Below the pieces are notes generated by a model, which saw nothing but the letters and a program-made list of their open reading frames with translations, was not told the DNA's origin and ran no database searches. Below, piece by piece: positions 2,327-19,311 of a DNA stretch of 20,003 bases (the first letter of the stretch is position 1; each line of letters opens with the position of its first letter). This DNA is from a virus. The position numbers were made by a program, and so were the translations under genes. The stretch spans positions 1 through 20,003 of IMG/VR virus record IMGVR_UViG_3300045051_001234; one strand, 5' to 3'.

Positions 2327-3465
2327 TCTTTTTTCCCCGTATTCATGCGAAGATAGGCATAAGCCTCGCCCTCTTCTACGGCGCCGGAGTCGAGAAGTTG
2401 TTTCCCGAATTCTTCCACAGCATCCTCTTTTGAACCGCGCGGTGCGGCTGCAGAGATTAGTTTCTCCAGCGGCGTGATTGGAATATCAAACAACGCCTCA
2501 ACAAGCTTGTGCTGGTCTTCGGGCAAAAAGGTCTTCGCGATTTCGGCCATTTGCCGAGAGTTGCGAATGGACCGACGGACGGCAGGGACCAGCTTATACC
2601 CGTCCGGGATGAAGTTGTCGTCCATGATTGATTTGTTCGTGGCCTGCGCGCGATACGCCTCGGCCCAGGCCTTGAGCACTTGCGCGACCTGCAGCCCGAG
2701 CCCAACCATCTTCGGGTCCTGCATCAGCGACGGAGTCAGCGAAGCCGGGATGTCGATGGGACGATACTTGCGGCCCACACGCAAGGCCAGCTCGGCGACT
2801 TTCGGGCAGCGCCCCAGGCATCCGCAGAATGAGCATGCGGACACGCTGGGGGACGCTGTCGAAAAGTCCCCCACGCGGTTAGCACGGATAGCACGGTGAA
2901 CGACAGTTTTGACGCGAAGCAGCAATGCCGCAGCGTTGGTTAAGTCGAACGTGTGCTGGTCGGTTTCGTCTCGGTGGGGTAAAATGAAAGTGACCGTGCA
3001 GTCCTGCAGATTCGGAAAACGTTTGAGCAAGCCGAGAGCGTAGGCAATACCCTGCAGGTTGTTGTCGGTGGCCTCTACACCATGCTGGCCGAACTTATAA
3101 TCCACGATTTCGCCGTGCAGACCGTCCGCGGTCACAAGCGCGAAGTCCAAGAAGCCAGCGGTCGTGCCGGCCCAACCGTCCACGACCGCATCATCAACGG
3201 GCAGGTATTGCTCACGGAGGACTGTGCAGCCCGGGAACTTTTTCGCGAGGTCGTCGCAGAAAAGCCGGCACTGGGCGACCGCGGCTGCCTGTGCATCTGA
3301 CAGCCGCGGGTCGTCCAGGCCCGCCTCCGCTGCGTCGTGTTGAAGGGTGCCGGCCTCAGCGGCAGCGTTCGTTCCCCCTGTAGGAGTCCAGCACGGACAG
3401 GCCTCGCGGGCTTGTAGAGTGCTCGGAGAATAGGGGTGATGTTTTCTTGTCGCTGCGTCGCTCAT
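2323..3465 (-). CDS. RecB/Cas4-like PD-(D/E)XK nuclease (380 aa)
   Basis: Resembles the phage Cas4/RecB-type exonucleases (DUF2800-like). Visible elements in order: a GTLQHDAAE helix with His43, the active-site pair Asp107 (FLDF) and Asp122-x-Lys124 (EIVDYKFG), and the Q-x3-Y motif of RecB nucleases (Gln138-Tyr142). Cysteines C23 and C25 near the N-terminus plus C211, C214, C216 and C220 (CSFCGCLGRC) resemble the split Cys set that holds an Fe-S cluster in Cas4/AddB proteins. The likely role is 5' or 3' end resection in phage recombination, together with the split helicase and the possible ssDNA-binding protein. It overlaps both neighbours by ATGA, upstream being the HNH gene at 3462. Confidence 0.88.
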   Translation of the reverse strand: MSDAATRKHHPYSPSTLQAREACPCWTPTGGTNAAAEAGTLQHDAAEAGLDDPRLSDAQAAAVAQCRLFCDDLAKKFPGCTVLREQYLPVDDAVVDGWAGTTAGFLDFALVTADGLHGEIVDYKFGQHGVEATDNNLQGIAYALGLLKRFPNLQDCTVTFILPHRDETDQHTFDLTNAAALLLRVKTVVHRAIRANRVGDFSTASPSVSACSFCGCLGRCPKVAELALRVGRKYRPIDIPASLTPSLMQDPKMVGLGLQVAQVLKAWAEAYRAQATNKSIMDDNFIPDGYKLVPAVRRSIRNSRQMAEIAKTFLPEDQHKLVEALFDIPITPLEKLISAAAPRGSKEDAVEEFGKQLLDSGAVEEGEAYAYLRMNTGKKE

Positions 3466-3800
3466 GCTTTTCGATTTTTAGTTCGTAACCGATGACAACA
3501 AGCACATACCACATCACACTTCGCCATCTCTTCCTTCAGTTTGGAAAGCGGAACGTGCAACATTTGGTCACAAGATTTTTGAGTTCCTGGACGGTGGTCA
3601 AAGTCCATGCATACCGGGTCAAAGGACTTGCCGCAGTCCATACACGGAACTTGTTTCGCATCGTCCATAATTTGACGACACCGCGCCCGAACTTTTTTCT
3701 GCCCTTCACGCGCCTTCTGTCTAGCCTTTTCGGGATTCAAACGGCGCCATTCCTTGGCGCGCAATTTGGCGAGAGTCGGATTTTTCTGGTAAGCCGTCAT
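3462..3800 (-). CDS. HNH endonuclease, zinc-binding type (112 aa)
   Basis: The first half is a basic helical region (about residues 10-50, RLNPEKARQKAREGQKK). The second half carries the zinc-bound HNH core: CMDC (C53, C56), MDFDHRPG (Asp68-His69), the middle SKLKEEMAKC and the closing CxxCH (VCACCH, C99-H103) followed by RLRTKNRK. This matches small phage HNH proteins whose HNH motif is framed by two CxxC pairs. It is a third, different HNH lineage, without an AP2 domain. It is the first gene behind the element A copy at 3811-3839, and its stop overlaps the RecB-like gene start by ATGA, so it heads the recombination operon. Confidence 0.9.
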   Translation of the reverse strand: MTAYQKNPTLAKLRAKEWRRLNPEKARQKAREGQKKVRARCRQIMDDAKQVPCMDCGKSFDPVCMDFDHRPGTQKSCDQMLHVPLSKLKEEMAKCDVVCACCHRLRTKNRKA

Positions 3801-5291: not shown

Positions 5292-5611
5292 GCGCCGGGC
5301 ACGTGGAGTTTCCCGCGCACTACGCGGCCGTCCGCACAGCGGGTGATGCCGTGTTCGGCGCTGTAGCAGCCGGCCTTGGGGGCGGGCGCCACTTTCACGT
5401 TGCGGTCGTCTGGGTCCCAGCGAGGCCACAGCTTTTCTGAGAGCCACTCGCTGGGGAACAGCAGCATCAACAATTCCTTCGGATTCGGAATGCCGTAGCT
5501 CCGGTAAAAACTACGGAGCCGGCCCCAGCGCGTGCCGTAGAGGGAGGGCACCGCGTATCCGCGCTCCCGCTCCGCACGAGACTTAAACCGATTCTTGAAC
5601 CACGCCTTCAT
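5288..5611 (-). CDS. Hypothetical protein (107 aa)
   Basis: Runs from ATG 5611 to TGA 5288-5290 and is coupled on both sides (TGATG with the fusion gene, ATGA with the SprT-like gene). The N-terminal 40 residues are basic and aromatic (KNRFKSRAERERGY, WGRLRSFYRSYG), the middle is PKELLMLLFPSEWLSEKLWPRW, and the C-terminus holds two Cys (AGCYSAEHGITRCADG). No recognised family. Confidence 0.65.
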   Translation of the reverse strand: MKAWFKNRFKSRAERERGYAVPSLYGTRWGRLRSFYRSYGIPNPKELLMLLFPSEWLSEKLWPRWDPDDRNVKVAPAPKAGCYSAEHGITRCADGRVVRGKLHVPGA

Positions 5612-6525
5612 CAGCTTTTCTCAGTGAGTTGTTTGAGCAACGGAGCAACATTGCCGCTTTTGTTTCGGTCGTCGATAAGCTTGCCACACGCCTTGGCGTC
5701 AAGCTTGATTGCCATGCAGGCCATGATGTGCGCCTCATGCGGCAGGCCGGACTCCTCGTCAAGGTCCTGCCCATCGAGCAGCGCAAAAAGATGACGCAGC
5801 GCGGCCTCGTCGTAGACGGTTGCGCGCACCGCGGCGTCTCGCCAATTCCAAGGCCCATACTTTTTCGCACCGAGGGCCATGACCTTCGCGAGGTAAATAA
5901 GCCCGATGGTCGGCAGCAGCCGCAGTGGCGGTTTCTTAGTGCCGGCAATGTCCTTCGGGTTGGACGAAACGGTGGGCGGCTTATCGTTGGGGATTTTCAC
6001 GAATAGGCCATTAGCATCTGGTTCAAAACGCGTCGCGCAGCGCCAGTCGAAAACTGCCTTCTCGGCTTGCGCACCTTTGGACTTCTCGTAACCAGGAAGC
6101 GCAACGTAGCCAGCGCAAGACATGATAGCGCGCAAGTCGCGACGCACGACCGACTCCGCGTCCATGCCACTGGGGTAGGTCGTGAAGTCGTGGTCCTTGG
6201 CCAGCGACTCGATTCGAAAACCGTCTTCGCGGTCGAGCTGAGCCGGGTTCACTGGTTCGAAGCCCGCGAGCGCCAGTTTTTCTTCCATCGCGTAAAACGC
6301 CGGGAAGTTGTATTGGTCATGTCCCCGCATTGGGCCGAGGATGTAGATACGGGAGGGGTTCACTTGCGTCGGTAACTCCAGCGAGTCGCTTCCATTCGGC
6401 GAACCACTCGGAGTCAAACCAGGATTCGTGATACCCGCGCCGAGGTCTGCCTTCGCTATCGGGGTGAAGGCCGCTTGTTCCGCTTTCAGTTTCGCGATTA
6501 GGTTGTCCAGTTCGGTCGTGTTCAT
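5611..6525 (-). CDS. Fusion of DUF4406-like (deoxyribosyltransferase-type) and dATP/dGTP diphosphohydrolase-like domains (304 aa)
   Basis: The start is ATG 6525, forming TAATG with the upstream stop; an earlier TTG at 6531 is less likely. After a low-complexity N-terminus (1-55), residues 59-162 match the DUF4406 type: RIYILGPMRG, NFPAFYAMEEKLALAGFEPVNPA, a helix with VVRRDLRAI, then GYVALPGYEKSKGAQAEKAVFDW. This fold is that of nucleoside 2-deoxyribosyltransferases. Residues 188-277 match the phage dATP/dGTP diphosphohydrolase N-terminal type: NPKDIAGTKKPPLRLLP, LGAKKYGPWNWRD, LRHLFALLDGQD, DEESGLPHEAHIMACMA. The second family includes proteins that trim dNTP pools, known from phages that alter their DNA bases (MazZ of cyanophage S-2L). 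Joined here, they point to nucleotide-pool control. No PurZ-like gene is visible. Confidence 0.82.
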   Translation of the reverse strand: MNTTELDNLIAKLKAEQAAFTPIAKADLGAGITNPGLTPSGSPNGSDSLELPTQVNPSRIYILGPMRGHDQYNFPAFYAMEEKLALAGFEPVNPAQLDREDGFRIESLAKDHDFTTYPSGMDAESVVRRDLRAIMSCAGYVALPGYEKSKGAQAEKAVFDWRCATRFEPDANGLFVKIPNDKPPTVSSNPKDIAGTKKPPLRLLPTIGLIYLAKVMALGAKKYGPWNWRDAAVRATVYDEAALRHLFALLDGQDLDEESGLPHEAHIMACMAIKLDAKACGKLIDDRNKSGNVAPLLKQLTEKS

Positions 6526-6740
6526 TAGCAAGTTGGTCCGGTGACGTCATTGTCGGAGTTGGGTTGAGAGACACGGGGACGGTCGAGCGACGGGCAAGAG
6601 GCGATACGGGGGTCCTCTTCGCCGCAGGTCGCAATGAGACGGCCGTTCCAGGTTGCACAAACCGCCGCCGCGAATTGTCGGTTGCGACGGTGGGCTTCGA
6701 GCACAAGCTCGCGGAGGTCACGATAGAATTTTTGGTTCAT
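6525..6740 (-). CDS. Hypothetical protein (71 aa)
   Basis: Starts at ATG 6740 and ends with TAA 6525-6527, overlapping the next ATG by one base. The N-terminal half is an amphipathic helix (NQKFYRDLRELVLEAHRRNRQF) followed by AAAVCATWNGRLIATCGEEDP. The rest looks disordered. The leader has no Shine-Dalgarno site but three tandem CCAAAA units ending at the start codon. Confidence 0.6.
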   Translation of the reverse strand: MNQKFYRDLRELVLEAHRRNRQFAAAVCATWNGRLIATCGEEDPRIASCPSLDRPRVSQPNSDNDVTGPTC

Positions 6741-8558: not shown

Positions 8559-8803
8559 AGCTTTTCGTATCCCCACGGGCACCGTGCATAGATGCCTTCG
8601 TCGGCGCCTTCCGGGAATTCTTTTGGCGGTGTGTCCATGCGAGAAAAGTAGTCCCGCAGGTGGCCGGCAGACATCCTGCCGCCTATTTTGCTTTCCTCGA
8701 TTATTTCCAGCGCCCGCTTCGCGGTGCGGGCCACGACGGTGACGGACCTCCCGCGCGACGAGTCCACCATCAGATACCCGTTGAAATAGTTTTTAGGTCT
8801 CAT
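8555..8803 (-). CDS. Hypothetical protein (82 aa)
   Basis: ATG 8803 shares ATGA with the stop of the helicase C-terminal part, and TGA 8555 shares ATGA with the next gene. The first half has the layout of a small alpha/beta protein (NGYLMVDSSRGRSVTVVARTAKRALEIIEES), the second half is polar. No family recognised. Confidence 0.65.
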   Translation of the reverse strand: MRPKNYFNGYLMVDSSRGRSVTVVARTAKRALEIIEESKIGGRMSAGHLRDYFSRMDTPPKEFPEGADEGIYARCPWGYEKL

Positions 8804-10434
8804 GCGGCCCCCTTGGCCAGCTCGGCCTTCAAGTCTGCGATGAAGGCCGCACCCAGCTGGCGGTGATACTTGAAAAGGATACGCGCACCCAGAGCGGCCT
8901 GCTTCTGCGTGATAGTCGCCCGGTGCGCCAACGCGTGGCCAATGCGGACGTCCACGGCGGCGAAGCCCACGTCATCCAATTTCCGCGCGCCGTCGCAAAC
9001 ACCCGCGAGAGTTTTCATTCCCAGGTGCACAAGTTCCGCGCAGCGGTCCGTCACCAACCGCGCCTCCGCGGCCACCTTCTCGAAGGTCAGGCGGACGTTG
9101 GTCACCGGCTCGACCTCTTCCACCTCGGCCTCGGCCCAGTCGGTTACCTTGTCCAGACACGCATCGATGACCGCAAGCTTCTCCACGATGGTGCGCGACA
9201 TGTGCGCGTCAAGCGAACCCTCAAGCACGAGGTAAGAGCAGAGCACGCTGTCTTTCTGACCGATGCGATGGCAACGGTCCTCTTGTTGCGCCATTAAACC
9301 CGGAGTCCAATGCAATTCGACGAATACTACGTGTGAACTAGCAGTTAAAGTAATCCCTTCGGACGCGGCCAGATTCCCCACGAAAATATTGCACTCTGGG
9401 TCGTTCTGAAAGCGGTCTACTTGCTCCATGCGTTTGTTCGGCGGCGTGTTGCCAGTAATGACCGCGGCCTGCGGAAACTTCGCAACAATTTGAGCAATTA
9501 CATCCAGGTGGTGAGCGAAAACCACAGCCTTGCCAGATTCAAGCGCGTCTTCGATAAACGCGAGACACTGCGGGAGCTTGGCCAGTGCGACCTTGTGCCG
9601 TATTTCCGCGGCGTCTTCAAATGCCGCACCTTGCCCGCGGCGCAGCGCGTGGACGGCCTCGGCGTATTCTTCGCGAGACTCACCAGCACGCGCTAGTTCA
9701 ACGCGAGCGCGCAATTCAACCAGTGCGGCCTCGCGTTCGGCCACCATGGATTCCTCCAGTTCAAGCAATTCTTTGCAGCCGGCCGCGTCTAGCTCGATGA
9801 CCTGCCGTTGTTTAGCCGGCAGTTCAGTCAGCACGTCCTTTTTCAGGCGGCGCACCATGATTGTCGAACGGAGTTTATGCTGCAGTTCGGCTTCATTACT
9901 ATGGCCGGAAAAATCCCACCCAAAAGAAGATTGTTTTCCGGCACAGTAACGACGGGCAAACTGGAAAAAATTTGTCTTTGGCCAATTCCTCGGGTCCAAG
10001 TCATTCAACACGGGCCAGATTTCGATAGGACGATTACAAATCGGCGTCCCCGTCAGCGCAAGTTTGTAACGCGCCGGAATTGACAGCGCACACTTGGTGC
10101 GGCGCGCCTTCGGATTTTTTACGTAGTGTGCCTCATCTATGGCACGGAGGTCCCACGAACGGTTCTTGATATCCGCCAGAAACTTGAAGAGACAATCGAA
10201 ATTCACGATAACTACGTCCGCGCGAGAAAAAGGCCGGTCACTGTGTTGCACTTCGACGGAGAGTGGACGCACCAGCCACTTTTTCAATTCTCGCAACCAG
10301 TTCAATTTCAAGGTGTTAGGACAGATAATCAAAACTTGTTTGATATCCGGGCAGGCGTTAATCGCACCAATCGTCTGAATACTCTTGCCTGTGCCCATCT
10401 CATCGGCTAGGAGACAACCTTTTATTTCATTCAT
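8800..10434 (-). CDS. SNF2-family helicase, C-terminal part of a split gene (544 aa)
   Basis: Carries the SNF2/SMARCAL1-like motifs in order: motif I DEMGTGKS (residues 11-18), motif II DEAH (100-103), motif III LTGTP (127-131), and motif VI QQEDRCHRIGQ (383-393), with a helical insertion (about 220-280) between the lobes and a 130-residue C-terminal tail. It starts at ATG 10434 only 6 residues before GCLLADEMG, so it lacks the Q-motif and N-terminal region. These are found on the other side of the HNH-AP2 gene, in the 128-aa ORF ending PFQKAGIAFILNCWGRA. SNF2-type phage helicases normally have both in one chain. The enzyme would translocate on dsDNA or anneal strands during replication or recombination. 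The start overlaps the HNH stop (ATGA), so both parts could be made from one mRNA. Confidence 0.93.
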   Translation of the reverse strand: MNEIKGCLLADEMGTGKSIQTIGAINACPDIKQVLIICPNTLKLNWLRELKKWLVRPLSVEVQHSDRPFSRADVVIVNFDCLFKFLADIKNRSWDLRAIDEAHYVKNPKARRTKCALSIPARYKLALTGTPICNRPIEIWPVLNDLDPRNWPKTNFFQFARRYCAGKQSSFGWDFSGHSNEAELQHKLRSTIMVRRLKKDVLTELPAKQRQVIELDAAGCKELLELEESMVAEREAALVELRARVELARAGESREEYAEAVHALRRGQGAAFEDAAEIRHKVALAKLPQCLAFIEDALESGKAVVFAHHLDVIAQIVAKFPQAAVITGNTPPNKRMEQVDRFQNDPECNIFVGNLAASEGITLTASSHVVFVELHWTPGLMAQQEDRCHRIGQKDSVLCSYLVLEGSLDAHMSRTIVEKLAVIDACLDKVTDWAEAEVEEVEPVTNVRLTFEKVAAEARLVTDRCAELVHLGMKTLAGVCDGARKLDDVGFAAVDVRIGHALAHRATITQKQAALGARILFKYHRQLGAAFIADLKAELAKGAA

Positions 10435-10910
10435 GTCTTAGGATAGTTTAGCCGAGCAAACTTGTCAAATTTTTCATACATAAACTTGTCGTAAGCCCGT
10501 GCCGCAGCTTCTTCCGAATCGAAGCGGCCCAGACTGGTTGTCCTGCCGCTCTGTTGAACTTGCGCCACCCATTTTTTTCGTTCTTTCGACCAGCTAACCC
10601 CCTTAAAGCGAGAAGTAAGCCCGGGCCGCTTTCGCATGTTAGCCAAGTTTTGACTGTTCGTAGCCTGTCTCAAATTATTCCGACAGTTGTTCAACCCATT
10701 CCCATCCTTGTGGTCCACACCCGCACAACCCATAATCTGTTGATGCATTTTTATCGTGGTGGTTCGACCATCCTTTTTTATATTTCGAACCGCATAAAAA
10801 GTATGCTTTCTTGGGTCTTTGTGGGCATACCACTTGTTCTGTGTGAGGACAGCAAAATCCTCCTCGGATACTAGTGCAACCTTTCCTTGTGAAAGGGGTA
10901 TCTCTTTCAT
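10431..10910 (-). CDS. HNH endonuclease with AP2 domain (159 aa), second paralogue, inserted in the helicase gene
   Basis: Starts at ATG 10910, sharing ATGA with the stop of the helicase N-terminal ORF; the frame further upstream is its shadow. The HNH core is at about residues 54-90 (KMHQQIMGC, VDHKDGNGLNNCRNNLR, with His56, Asp66-His67 and Asn79), followed by an AP2 domain at 101-157 (RFKGVSWSKE, LGRF, EEAAARAYD, LNYP). Its stop TGA overlaps the ATG of the helicase C-terminal part. The ORF fills the whole gap between the helicase halves, so there is no room for an intron ribozyme. It resembles the free-standing homing endonucleases that split phage genes, as in the genes-in-pieces ribonucleotide reductase of phage Aeh1. 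Confidence 0.93.
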   Translation of the reverse strand: MKEIPLSQGKVALVSEEDFAVLTQNKWYAHKDPRKHTFYAVRNIKKDGRTTTIKMHQQIMGCAGVDHKDGNGLNNCRNNLRQATNSQNLANMRKRPGLTSRFKGVSWSKERKKWVAQVQQSGRTTSLGRFDSEEAAARAYDKFMYEKFDKFARLNYPKT

Positions 10911-11293
10911 GCGCGGCCCCAACAATTCAAAATAAACGCAATACCCGCCTTCTGAAAGGGCAGATACGCCAGCCCCGGAGGGCACGGCACCTCTAAATTC
11001 GCGGTGATAGCGCGCGACGCCTCGACCGCCACGGCGCGCTTTTCCTGGTCCGCCTTCGCCTGCATCGGGTCAGGGTGCGCCCACCAATTGCAAACCCAAG
11101 AACCATCGCTCTGGCGTTTGGGCGCTATCCCAGCCGCGCGCAAGGTTTCCTTGTTTTGCTTCCACGCATCCCAGAACGAAGCCGGGACGGTGAAGGACGT
11201 GCGCAAAATCCTGTCCGTCCCGTCCTGCAGGCGCACCTTCCTGGGCGCGCCCCAGGGCAGAAGCTTTTCAATATCGATATTTTTTTCGGTCAT
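10907..11293 (-). CDS. SNF2-family helicase, N-terminal part of a split gene (128 aa)
   Basis: ATG 11293 is preferred because it shares ATGA with the upstream membrane gene. The first 100 residues (KVRLQDGTDRILRTSFTVPASFWDAWKQNKETLRAAGI, CNWWAH, a KADQEKRAVAVEASRAI helix) look like the domain that precedes the helicase core. The last 20 residues (GLAYLPFQKAGIAFILNC, then WGRA) are the Q-motif segment that comes about 8-15 residues before motif I in SNF2 proteins. The chain stops there, and the missing motif I begins in the ORF at 10434. Joining the two would restore a standard helicase of about 670 aa. Confidence 0.85.
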   Translation of the reverse strand: MTEKNIDIEKLLPWGAPRKVRLQDGTDRILRTSFTVPASFWDAWKQNKETLRAAGIAPKRQSDGSWVCNWWAHPDPMQAKADQEKRAVAVEASRAITANLEVPCPPGLAYLPFQKAGIAFILNCWGRA

Positions 11294-15314: not shown

Positions 15315-15559
15315 CGCTTAAAGATTCCCTTGATGAAGTGGTAAACGAACGCGCCGACAAAAGTCCCCGCCGTGATGACCACGGCCAACACGCAGGGCAC
15401 CAGGAAAAACAGCGCGACGATTGCAGTGCCGGCCCAGAGAGGACACGTGACCCACCACCAGCTCCAGGTGATGACGTGCGTTAGCTTCAACGCGAGGAAA
15501 ACCAGGAACAGAAGGAACGTCGGCGCGATGCCGCTGCGCTGGGTTACTTGGTTGGACAT
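15311..15559 (-). CDS. Two-helix membrane protein, phage 'fragile-X-F-like' type (82 aa)
   Basis: ATG 15559 (MSNQVTQRSG) is used, because the frame upstream is a shadow of the MazG-like gene. The segment FLLFLVFLALKLTHVITWSWWWVTCPLWAG is followed by a second long hydrophobic stretch (IVALFFLVPCVLAVVITAGTFVGAFVYHF). The 'LKLxxVIxWSWWWVxxPLW' string is typical of small phage membrane proteins often labelled transmembrane Fragile-X-F-associated, whose role is unknown. The C-terminus is basic (KGIFKR). Confidence 0.8.
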   Translation of the reverse strand: MSNQVTQRSGIAPTFLLFLVFLALKLTHVITWSWWWVTCPLWAGTAIVALFFLVPCVLAVVITAGTFVGAFVYHFIKGIFKR

Positions 15560-15951
15560 AACACGGGCTCGGGTTTGTTGATAAGCCACTGCTCACGCTG
15601 CCGGCGTTCGGCGGCTTTCAGCTTCAGGCATTCCGCCCACGCCGTGGCCACCGCGGCCACCTGCACCAACTCTTCGAGCAGTTTCGCGTCACTGGCCTCC
15701 GGACTTTCCGGTTTGCACACACGCTCACACAGCACACGCTCACACAGCACGCGCGCGACCTCGCCGACTTCCTCGGTCAACACGCACAACTTGATTGACT
15801 CGCTGAGACCGTGGTCCGCACACGTCGCAGGAAACTTCCCCGCGGCCTTGAGTGATTCCTGGCGGTTGCGCTCCTTGGAAATGTCCGTGAGGACTTCGAA
15901 CCGGAACCACTCAGGCCCCACCGCGCCGTAGCCGTCAATGCAAAAACTCAT
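15544..15951 (-). CDS. MazG-like NTP pyrophosphohydrolase (135 aa)
   Basis: Matches the all-alpha MazG/NTP-PPase layout: ISKERNRQESLKAAGKFP, then KLCVLTEEVGEVARVLCE with the metal-binding ExxE-type set (Glu60, Glu61, Glu64), then LLEELVQVAAVATAWAECL, the second metal helix. The usual ExxD of the second helix reads ExxQ here. It would cleave (d)NTPs to monophosphates and trim the nucleotide pool, alongside the diphosphohydrolase fusion at 5611. The stop overlaps the next gene by 16 bases. A 15-bp tandem repeat adds a duplicated CERVL segment between the two helices. Confidence 0.8.
   Translation of the reverse strand: MSFCIDGYGAVGPEWFRFEVLTDISKERNRQESLKAAGKFPATCADHGLSESIKLCVLTEEVGEVARVLCERVLCERVCKPESPEASDAKLLEELVQVAAVATAWAECLKLKAAERRQREQWLINKPEPVLCPTK
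15718..15747 (-). repeat. Perfect 15-bp tandem duplication inside the MazG-like gene
   Basis: 15718-15732 and 15733-15747 are identical. They encode a repeated five-residue block in the loop between the metal-binding helices. The frame is kept. Confidence 0.9.
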
Positions 15952-16766
15952 ACGCTGGGCAGTTCGTCGGTTGGGTTGATTGGTTCGCCGGTGATGGCGT
16001 CCACTTCGTCTGTGCCCGTGGGGAGCGCGTCAAAAGCGTTGGCGTCCGATTGCGCAGCGTCTCTCGCGGCTTTCGCCGCCGCGGCCTCGGCCTGTTGCTG
16101 CAGCATTGCGTTGAAGTAGACGTTGATGGCCTGCGCAATGAGGTCCGCGCAAAACTTATCGCGCGCGATGGCGAAGGGCGTATTGTCGTGCGTGGCCAGA
16201 TACTTCTGTGTCCACACACTGCCGGCCGGCAGGTCCTTGGGCGCGGGCCGGTCCGCCACCTTGACGAACGTGCCGTCAGGCGCGGGATTGAAAACAAGTT
16301 TCGGCGGCGCGGGTGCGGGCCGCGGGTCTGCGATGGGCTGGCCCTGCGCGTTGACTGGTTGAATTAAGTTACTCACTGGTTTTGTCTGTTGGGTTAGTTC
16401 GTTTAACTGGCGTTGCAGAGCCGCTATCTGGTTCTGCAAAGATTGGTTCCCACTGGGCGCCGGGCTCGTCGCCACGCTTTTGGTAGGCGTAAGGTCGCGG
16501 ACCGGAGCGGCGGGGCGCAGCGGCATTTGTTGTTGCATCGTCTGGCGTGCTCGCAACGGTGCCGGCGCTCTCTTGCTGCCCGGGATTGGTTCCCGTTGAT
16601 TGAAGGCTGCCGCCGAGGACTTGATTAGCTCCCTGGCTGATGGCGGCGTTACTTTTTCTGCGAGTGCTCGTAGGTTTCGCCTTTCGCGTTCGAGTTGTTC
16701 GACAGAGTCATTGAATATAGGCTGGATGCCTCCAGGTGGAGGAGGTCCTTTGAGGTCATCACTCAT
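15948..16766 (-). CDS. Pro/Ala/Gln-rich hypothetical protein with coiled coil (272 aa)
   Basis: ATG 16766 shares ATGA with the collagen-like gene, and the stop shares ATGA with the MazG-like gene. Mostly low complexity: a helical stretch near the start (SVEQLERERRNLRALAEKV), Pro-rich linkers, a short coiled coil (NQIAALQRQLNELTQQ), a folded-looking part (LVFNPAPDGTFVKVADRP, SVWTQKYLATHD, FCADLIAQAINVYFNAML), then an Ala-rich helix and an acidic tail. No known family. It may be a scaffold-like or membrane-edge protein, but that is speculation. Confidence 0.75.
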   Translation of the reverse strand: MSDDLKGPPPPGGIQPIFNDSVEQLERERRNLRALAEKVTPPSARELIKSSAAAFNQREPIPGSKRAPAPLRARQTMQQQMPLRPAAPVRDLTPTKSVATSPAPSGNQSLQNQIAALQRQLNELTQQTKPVSNLIQPVNAQGQPIADPRPAPAPPKLVFNPAPDGTFVKVADRPAPKDLPAGSVWTQKYLATHDNTPFAIARDKFCADLIAQAINVYFNAMLQQQAEAAAAKAARDAAQSDANAFDALPTGTDEVDAITGEPINPTDELPSV

Positions 16767-16975
16767 AAAGGTTTTCGCCCGGTCATGCGGAACTCAAGAA
16801 ACTTGAAGTTTGATTCCAAAACGCGTTGACGGTGCACGAGGTTCAGCACTGCAGTAACACCAGATTCACCTTGCGGCCCCTGCGGTCCAGGTGGGCCGGG
16901 CGTTCCTTGCGGGCCTTGTCTGCAGAGCAGACAGCCGGCGATGCAGCCGAAGAGGAAAAAGAAAAGGATGGTCAT
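16763..16975 (-). CDS. Membrane peptide with collagen-like repeats (70 aa)
   Basis: I chose ATG 16975, which shares ATGA with the upstream stop; the longer frame to 17257 is a shadow. The first 18 residues (TILFFFLFGCIAGCLLC) look like a membrane helix or signal anchor with a CxxxC. Six Gly-X-Y triplets follow (GPQGTPGPPGPQGPQGES), then a helical basic tail (LVHRQRVLESNFKFLEF). Collagen-like repeats in phages usually sit in tail fibres; here they are on a tiny early-type membrane protein, where they may form a trimer. Confidence 0.75.
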   Translation of the reverse strand: MTILFFFLFGCIAGCLLCRQGPQGTPGPPGPQGPQGESGVTAVLNLVHRQRVLESNFKFLEFRMTGRKPL

Positions 16976-17172
16976 AGCTTCGGAAAACCCTGCGGAAATT
17001 TGCGCGCGTGGTCGCGGTCGTCCAGTGTAGTGGCAAGCCAAAACACAAGGGCTGTGAGGCGCGAGTAACACCAAGGCCCGGTGCACACGCCACGCTTGGC
17101 CAAGAATGCGCCAGGAGTGACGCGGAACATTTTGATTCCGGGAGTGAAGCCGAAGGTGTATTCGATTGTCAC
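16972..17172 (-). CDS. Hypothetical protein (66 aa)
   Basis: Starts at GTG 17172, sharing GTGA with the stop of the 82-aa gene, and ends with ATGA overlap. Residues 1-25 are beta-like (IEYTFGFTPGIKMFRVTPGAF), followed by a Cys/Trp-rich, moderately hydrophobic stretch (GPWCYSRLTALVFWLATTL). No recognised family. Confidence 0.6.
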   Translation of the reverse strand: MTIEYTFGFTPGIKMFRVTPGAFLAKRGVCTGPWCYSRLTALVFWLATTLDDRDHARKFPQGFPKL

Positions 17173-17417
17173 AGGTCGTCAGCGTTAAGGGAATAAAGAG
17201 TGCCGCGGTGATACATCGTGCCGCAGTCTTCACGCGACCACAGCCACCACACGCCACGCTTGTGAACGTCCGGCACTACTTTCCATCCAGCCACGCGTTG
17301 CAGGCCCTCCATAAAGTGTTGCGGATTCTTCGAAAAAGATTGAGGCCGCGTCTCGCCCTTCCACCAAACCTTGAATTGGATTAAACCAACCGGCTCGTAA
17401 TATCTTTTTTGTTTCAT
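17169..17417 (-). CDS. Hypothetical protein (82 aa), first gene after element A copy 2
   Basis: ATG 17417 lies 11 bases behind the CACTGGT core. The protein is basic and rich in Trp, Tyr and Lys (KQKRYYEPVGLIQFKVWWKGETRPQ, GWKVVPDVHKRGVWWLWSRE). It has a beta-rich look but no recognised family. It heads the operon that runs to 14580. Confidence 0.7.
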   Translation of the reverse strand: MKQKRYYEPVGLIQFKVWWKGETRPQSFSKNPQHFMEGLQRVAGWKVVPDVHKRGVWWLWSREDCGTMYHRGTLYSLNADDL

Positions 17418-17428
17418 CTTCTATTCTA

Positions 17429-17457
17429 ACCAGTGGACCGTTTTTCGAAAATGTTAA
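17429..17457 (-). promoter_or_regulatory. Element A, copy 2 (promoter-like)
   Basis: Minus strand: TTAACA (17457-17452), exactly 16 bases, CACTGGT (17435-17429), 11 bases to ATG 17417. It sits in the 43-base gap after the stop of the 288-aa gene. Confidence 0.7.
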
Positions 17458-17460
17458 GCA

Positions 17461-18327
17461 CTAACTTGCATCCGGCGCGTTTGACAGCGCGGTTGCAAAC
17501 TTCTCGGCCTCTTTGCCGGACAAGGACGTCATGCGTTTGTGCCTCGCATCATACCAAGCTTGCTTTTCGAAACGCTTGAAGGTGTCCGGAATTCGCCCAT
17601 TGCGCTGCGCCTCCATGCAATGCTTGGCATACTCTGATTGGTCCTTGAGCCAGCAAACAAGGTGCGCGTAAAAAGGCGGCGCGATTCCGAGAACATCATC
17701 AGAGTCCAACGCATCCCCTTGTTGGGCTTCGAGCAGTTTGAGGTTGAACGCGACCATCGTCTTATCGTTCCATGCGCCCACTCGCAGACGGCCGTCCAGG
17801 TGCCCGCGGAAAACAAGGTGCGCTTTGATGCGGTCCACTTCATCCGCCAGCTCGGCCGGCGTTAAGTTGTGCGTGTTGGTGTTGACATATTCACCCAGGC
17901 GGGTGCGGAAACGAATTGCCCAGCGGTTCAGCTTGCCGCACCATCGAAGGCCAACCACGCGGCGCGGCTGGCCCTGCCCATCGGGGCCGTGCCACAGCGG
18001 CAAGCGGTTCTCATGCGCAATGTATTCGGTCCGGGTTCGGGGTGTGGATGGCTTGCGCTCCGCGGGTGCCACTGCCGCCGGCTCCAGCGAGGCCTCGTCT
18101 ATCTCCGCATACCACTTGGCCTTGTTCTCCGGCTTCATCCGTCGAACCTCGCTTATCATCAGGCGCAGCCGATAGGCCATGCGTTCGGCCTGCTCCCGGC
18201 GTTGCTGCACCAGCGGATGGTCAGGACCCCAGTCAGCAGAGTATCGACGGATATCGGCCCACAGCAGGCGTATCCTGTGGATTTCGGACTTCCAACCGCA
18301 ATACCGGGACATTTCACCACGTCTCAT
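17461..18327 (-). CDS. Hypothetical protein (288 aa), first minus-strand gene after the divergent region
   Basis: I chose ATG 18327; the frame open to 18357 lies in element A. The N-terminal 90 residues are helical and basic (WKSEIHRIRLLWADIRRYS, QQRREQAERMAYRLRLMISEVRRM). After a Pro-rich linker comes a segment (VVGLRWCGKLNRWAIRFRTRLGEYVNTNTHNLTPAELADEVDRI) whose strand-strand-strand-helix order recalls AP2-type DNA-binding domains, though it lacks their signature residues. The C-terminal third is helical with many charged residues. As the first gene of the leftward unit it could be a regulator or replication initiator, but nothing proves this. Confidence 0.8.
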   Translation of the reverse strand: MRRGEMSRYCGWKSEIHRIRLLWADIRRYSADWGPDHPLVQQRREQAERMAYRLRLMISEVRRMKPENKAKWYAEIDEASLEPAAVAPAERKPSTPRTRTEYIAHENRLPLWHGPDGQGQPRRVVGLRWCGKLNRWAIRFRTRLGEYVNTNTHNLTPAELADEVDRIKAHLVFRGHLDGRLRVGAWNDKTMVAFNLKLLEAQQGDALDSDDVLGIAPPFYAHLVCWLKDQSEYAKHCMEAQRNGRIPDTFKRFEKQAWYDARHKRMTSLSGKEAEKFATALSNAPDAS

Positions 18328-18635: not shown

Positions 18636-18902
18636 ATGACCGGGTCAGAGGTTATCGTGCATAATGCCCGAATTGACTTGCAGGTTGCGAATCAACTTGC
18701 CAGCTTGACTTTTGACCGTAGCGCCCCACTTATTCCTTGTATGGACCCGAAAGACATCGAACGCCGGCTGTTCAGCTGCGCACCACAAGCTGCCAAGGAC
18801 CTGAACGCAAAGGCCAAGAAGTTGATACGCGCTCAGAAACGAGCCGACTGGTGGCACCGAAATGCCGACACCCGAAGCAGAAAGCCTCTGAATGAGAAGT
18901 GA
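18636..18902 (+). CDS. Hypothetical protein (88 aa), first rightward gene
   Basis: I chose ATG 18636 because GAGGT lies 4 bases upstream; the longer frame from GTG 18549 runs through the operator-like repeats. The first half is MTGSEVIVHNARIDLQVANQ, the middle MDPKDIERRLFSCAPQAAKDLN, and the C-terminus is a basic helix (KAKKLIRAQKRADWWHRN). The stop overlaps the endonuclease VII-like gene by 11 bases. It may bind DNA, but no family is recognised. Confidence 0.6.
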   Translation: MTGSEVIVHNARIDLQVANQLASLTFDRSAPLIPCMDPKDIERRLFSCAPQAAKDLNAKAKKLIRAQKRADWWHRNADTRSRKPLNEK

Positions 18903-19311
18903 AGCCTCCCTAGCTAGAATGCGTGCCTATAGCAAGTTGTGGCGTGCCAAGAATCGAGACCTTATCCGTCAGCGAAAGCTGGCATCCCGTCACAAGAATC
19001 CAGAACGATATCGGGCGCAGCGCAATGCGTGGAATCGGGCGAATGCAGAGAAAGTTCGGGCGATGTTTTTGCGCCAAAAATACGGCTTGGAATGGGCTGA
19101 ATATCAACGACTTTTGGCGATGCAGAACGGCAAGTGCGCCATTTGCCAGCAAGCGTTTTCGAAGACTCCGTGTGTAGACCACGACCACACGACTGGAGAA
19201 GTGCGGGGCTTGTTGTGCAAAGACTGCAACATCTCCCTCGGGCTTATGCAGGATAACCCCACGCGTCTTCGTGCCGGCGCAGACTATTTGGAATCACATG
19301 AAGCTGAATAA
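18892..19311 (+). CDS. Endonuclease VII-like HNH protein (139 aa)
   Basis: A typical phage recombination-endonuclease VII protein. After a basic helical region (1-75, with RAYSKLWRAKNRDLIRQRK) comes the zinc-binding core: NGKCAICQQ (C82, C85), VDHDHTTGEVRGLLCKDCN (His97, His99, C109, C112, Asn113) and SLGLMQDNPTRLRAGADYL, the conserved closing helix. T4 endonuclease VII resolves branched DNA before packaging. Small relatives beside terminase genes are common and may act in DNA processing for packaging. The start overlaps the upstream stop, and the stop overlaps the next gene by 14 bases. Confidence 0.92.
   Translation: MRSEASLARMRAYSKLWRAKNRDLIRQRKLASRHKNPERYRAQRNAWNRANAEKVRAMFLRQKYGLEWAEYQRLLAMQNGKCAICQQAFSKTPCVDHDHTTGEVRGLLCKDCNISLGLMQDNPTRLRAGADYLESHEAE

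Follow-up and report, generated by a model that had tools for sequence, protein, structure and literature searches.

Few genes are known to keep working after being split by a free-standing homing endonuclease. In Aeromonas phage Aeh1 the nrdA-a/mobE/nrdA-b locus encodes a split ribonucleotide reductase that is active as two chains (PMC2988022, PMC3653736), and the known precedents of endonuclease-split phage genes keep function (PMC2988022). Co-conversion has likewise been described for phage endonucleases (PMC2988022). The IPA-HNH endonucleases, which combine an HNH domain with a C-terminal AP2 domain, lie near or within essential genes, including those of the replisome (PMC10448857). Here we describe a SNF2 helicase gene split by an HNH-AP2 open reading frame (ORF). 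It lies in IMG/VR record IMGVR_UViG_3300045051_001234, a single metagenomic contig of 20,003 bases from an uncultured phage, the whole of which we call the window.

A SNF2 helicase gene split by an HNH-AP2 ORF

The locus consists of three ORFs on the minus strand. The N-terminal half of the helicase (11293-10907; 128 amino acids, aa) comprises a family-specific N-terminal domain and the Q-motif helix, with the codon for Q114 at 10954-10952, and it ends in LPFQKAGIAFILNCWGRA, i.e. residues NCWGRA, followed by a stop. The endonuclease ORF (10910-10431; 480 nucleotides, nt, including the stop; 159 aa) begins MKEIPLSQG. The C-terminal half (10434-8800; 544 aa) has MNEIKGCLLADEMGTGKS as its first residues, read MNEIKGCLL, and runs from Walker A (10395-10381) to motif VI and a C-terminal domain. 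Each ORF overlaps the next by a 4-nt ATGA stop/start sequence, at 10910-10907 between the N-half and the endonuclease and at 10434-10431 between the endonuclease and the C-half, the second overlap supplying a new start codon for the C-half. Pfam matched SNF2-rel_dom (PF00176, E 2.7e-36) and Helicase_C (PF00271, E 1.8e-14) in the C-half; motifs I, II, III, V and VI lie there too, with DEMGTGKS, DEAH, LTGTP and QEDRCHRIGQ present. Neither chain carries the whole nucleotide-binding lobe, the Q-motif being on the N-half and Walker A on the C-half. As judged from these motifs, the split helicase can only make a complete SNF2 lobe after assembly of the chains.

Relatives with an intact gene were found by searching viral contigs. 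Eight close loci were recovered, of which seven reach far enough upstream for the 5' part to be judged. All seven have one ORF of 668-670 aa (that of L005 runs off its contig) that aligns to both halves, so the flanking ORFs of the window are one gene and not a chance arrangement. The N-half matches residues 1-125/129 of the intact 668-aa relatives, and identity to the close relatives over the C-half is 80-86%. The junction in intact proteins reads CW-SVGR-GALIGDEMG, versus CW-GRA, a stop and then MNEIK-GCLLADEMG in the window. The relatives are uninterrupted and lack the insert, as expected of a gene split by a homing endonuclease; synteny between the window and one of them, G001, spans ~15 kb, with the endonuclease absent from G001. 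A separate ORF interrupting the helicase at this site was seen in none of ~130 related loci examined, a set that includes several overlapping records of the same virus and a few loci too short or diverged upstream to judge. The genome collection yielded no relatives. A sequence-only reading of the window had described a SNF2 gene divided by an HNH-AP2 ORF between the Q-motif and motif I, and had advised a search for intact relatives to map the insertion point. Its coordinates and residues for the three ORFs were reproduced when we re-derived the ORFs from the sequence, and the intact relatives, in which the two ORFs are one, bear out the division and fix the insertion point.

A predicted structure of the intact relative L002 (mean predicted local distance difference test score, pLDDT, 80.9) resembles SNF2-family remodellers in the PDB by structure comparison. 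In this model the Q-motif helix spans residues 112-126 and the strand running into Walker A residues 131-135, with a turn at 127-130 in between. The cut maps to that turn, agreeing with the earlier view that both borders fall in a short loop before the ATP-binding motif. Modelled alone (mean pLDDT 81.6), the C-half took the secondary structure that the corresponding part of the intact protein has.

The insert matched the Pfam AP2 profile (PF00847) above cut-off and HNH_3 (PF13392) just under it, at E 5e-05. Matches to PHROG HNH families reached E values down to 1.8e-32, and there was a weak match (E 0.0014) to 1u3e, the HNH homing endonuclease I-HmuI. With HNH at its N-terminus and AP2 at its C-terminus, the product is predicted to be a free-standing HNH-AP2 homing endonuclease of the IPA-HNH type, similar to I-HmuI. 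The empty allele, the predicted homing target, is present in relatives. One close relative has six HNH-AP2 matches, and members of the HNH-AP2 family elsewhere likewise show a stop/start overlap with the next gene. Two more HNH endonuclease genes, one of them HNH-AP2, occur in the window at 1808-2326 and 3462-3800; they lie between genes, flanking a DUF2800/exonuclease-like gene, and overlap their neighbours at stop/start.

Almost nothing was inserted besides the endonuclease ORF. The last shared codons of the two sides are separated by 499 bases, compared with ~12 bases in relatives, and of the resulting insert of ~490 nt, 480 are the ORF itself, with only ~10 nt outside it. This leaves little for a spliced element, either a minimal group I intron or a split-intein fractured gene, that would restore one continuous helicase. 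Introns do often house HNH endonucleases, split inteins are known to flank an endonuclease in fractured phage genes, and an intein C-terminal signature occurs at the P-loop of some related helicases. We nonetheless regard splicing as highly improbable. Rfam gave no group I intron match at the gathering threshold nor at E values up to 10, which together with the lack of space rules out that candidate. An intein or split intein is ruled out by the sequence of both borders, with no IntN-like sequence after the N-half (NCWGRA) and no IntC before GCLLADEMG; Pfam found no Hint domain either. The claim that the 480-base ORF fills the gap, with ATGA on both sides and no room for intron or intein, thus stands, and the gene belongs in this respect with those split by homing endonucleases. 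Frameshifting to fuse the frames was also rejected: both overlaps are -1 related, but neither junction has a slippery heptamer by eye.

The intein signature, HN before T or C, was seen at the P-loop in L059, L061, L064, L065, L161 and L168, a few codons downstream of the split site. Together with the insertion in the window, these signatures mark the conserved P-loop stretch as one that mobile elements have targeted more than once.

Foreign ancestry of the flanks

On both sides of the insert, over ~110 nt upstream and 460 nt downstream, the window departs from its relatives: DNA identity drops from ~80% to ~55-68% and rises again beyond these tracts. In the upstream tract (10919-11030, minus strand), amino acid identity to relatives is 57-62%, versus 68-88% just upstream. 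In the downstream tract (9960-10419, minus strand), the window protein is 68-73% identical to every clade member; clade members are 82-99% identical to L002. Trees built with FastTree agreed. The downstream tract put the window outside the clade as a whole; the remaining C-half put it as sister to L002/L003. Base composition shifts as well: GC content at third codon positions (GC3) is 0.49 in the endonuclease and 0.56 in the nearest downstream flank, versus 0.71-0.79 in the same segment of relatives. Among the 51 changes private to the window at columns where three relatives are invariant, 29 fell within 125 of 537 columns around the split, a concentration reached in 0 of 20,000 shuffles. Synonymous change in the foreign tracts is mostly saturated. 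These flanks derive from outside the recipient's clade. An isolated foreign patch of 78 nt over motif V/VI (9281-9358, minus strand; GC3 0.36) lies ~600 nt beyond the main tract.

The same divergence bears on whether the locus is an assembly artefact, with an endonuclease copy misjoined to a helicase gene. The locus is known from a single metagenomic contig, and assembly could be misled where a phage has several HNH-AP2 genes. Against misjoining, the endonuclease copies in G001 have at most ~61% protein identity, too distant to be misjoined; the halves lie in order on both sides with exact ATGA junctions; and the divergence reaches past the insert into both halves. An artefact is very unlikely on these grounds.

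Foreign flanks are consistent with the pattern expected from co-conversion in homing. Homing from a donor phage that lies outside the clade of the recipient most likely brought in the split allele: the intact allele would have been nicked or cut, then repaired from a split donor with co-conversion of the flanks. If homing was the cause, the donor already carried the split allele. The foreign flanks thereby suggest that gene fission can pass between phages with a homing endonuclease.

Two chains and the fate of helicase function

All SNF2 motifs are present in the two halves, with no frameshift or stop. The ratio of nonsynonymous to synonymous substitution rates (dN/dS) against the nearest relative is 0.04-0.08 outside the foreign tracts, similar to that of intact pairs. 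A second SNF2 gene was found neither in the 20-kb record nor in the records of the eight closest relatives, the largest of which are 71-74 kb and all of which may be incomplete; with one SNF2 gene per record in these relatives, there is no obvious backup helicase. The sequence-only reading had held that a second intact helicase beside a decaying copy would speak against it, and neither was seen.

We think it probable that the split is the work of a free-standing homing endonuclease, and that two translationally coupled chains reassemble and keep motor function. The HNH-AP2 gene would have entered the SNF2 gene almost as a bare ORF, landing in the turn that links the Q-motif helix to the strand of Walker A. 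Termination of the N-half would then feed initiation of the endonuclease, whose own termination would feed initiation of the C-half, and the two chains would most likely form one ATPase lobe by non-covalent assembly, with motor function kept.

Several points weigh against this account. The Q-motif contacts ATP in this helicase superfamily, which makes the split site a demanding one. No strong ribosome-binding site was seen by eye upstream of the C-half, so that production of this chain would rely on coupling. Most of the constraint seen in the low dN/dS may date from before the split. Ordinary recombination is another possible source of the foreign flanks, and one simple conversion tract does not account for the motif VI patch (9358-9281). 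Finally, neither direct searches with degenerate junction patterns nor the related loci gave any other split copy; with one contig and no second copy, survival of the split allele beyond its insertion is a presumption.

An alternative is recent inactivation, in which the insertion destroyed the helicase, the gene being dispensable or replaced by a host protein, and the halves have yet to decay. A single known split copy and the demanding place of the cut fit this history, and the SNF2 helicase may be non-essential for the phage. We consider it unlikely, if a serious contender, given the intact motifs, the absence of frameshift or stop, and the normal constraint. Precise overlaps at both junctions preserve the start of the C-half, the foreign flanks suggest that another phage already carried the split allele, and an analogous split of the polymerase is conserved in the group.

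In that case the family-A DNA polymerase of the same phage group likewise occupies two ORFs, with the cut just before motif A. The two ORFs lie on the reverse complement at 15389-16528 and 16525-17451 in L093 (G001) and at 16395-17468 and 17632-18555 in L096 (G003); a split polymerase was also seen at L201 and L204. Junctions vary: the halves overlap by ATGA in G001, and G007 looks alike; G003 has a 54-residue membrane-like ORF between the halves, with ATGA overlaps on both sides; and the N-part of G009 extends in a longer tail ahead of the C-part. In all six matching records the open frame that holds the C-part is 309-362 residues long (in G010 and G011 the junction itself was not read), versus a continuous frame with 338 further codons upstream in distant relatives. 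Both halves are constrained, with dN/dS of ~0.08 and 0.12 between G001 and G003. By analogy, the polymerase shows that this phage group tolerates gene splits, which is no proof that the helicase works; its conserved split suggests recurrent fission in the group.

Returning to the helicase, we put at even chances the fuller picture of a two-chain SNF2 motor, its Q-motif supplied in trans to the P-loop, in a group that tolerates replication proteins in pieces at active-site borders (the helicase before Walker A, the polymerase before motif A).

Elsewhere in the window, 5611-6531 encodes a DUF4406 domain fused to a dATP/dGTP diphosphohydrolase N-terminal domain, and 18892-19311 holds a recombination endonuclease VII-like ORF that, on the plus strand, runs against the minus-strand gene block.

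Relation to known split genes

Genes broken around a free-standing endonuclease gene, helicases among them, were reportedly described by Dassa et al. in 2009 as 'fractured genes'. The halves of those genes are joined by trans-splicing split inteins, of which the window has none. The IPA-HNH endonucleases match the window case in domain order, in their siting near or within replication genes and in their many copies in some phages; the main text of the survey that describes them does not mention helicases (PMC10448857). In MEP401-like phages a DNA polymerase is likewise encoded in two ORFs, separated by a small one; this is a different gene, and parallels the polymerase split of this group, not the helicase (PMC10580990).

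We found no report in the open-access literature of a SNF2 gene split by a free-standing homing endonuclease. Gene fission by an endonuclease is a known but rare kind of event; as far as we found, the split site and the enzyme class are new. The site parts two nucleotide-binding elements of one ATPase lobe, making it a test of split tolerance near an active site, and the locus offers a natural two-piece SNF2 design.

In the T4 topoisomerase genes 39/60 (mobA) and in gene 43A/43B of Aeromonas phage 25 (seg), a homing endonuclease adjoins a replication gene in pieces, and the pieces assemble (PMC2988022). These are other enzymes with other split sites, and for gene 43 the endonuclease as cause is uncertain. 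Aeh1 nrdA/mobE resembles the window in having a free-standing HNH endonuclease, with no intron, inside a conserved enzyme gene that thereby encodes two polypeptides. It differs in the enzyme and in the HNH type, MobE not being HNH-AP2; the cut in the window falls inside one ATPase lobe, where the activity of the two chains is a prediction.
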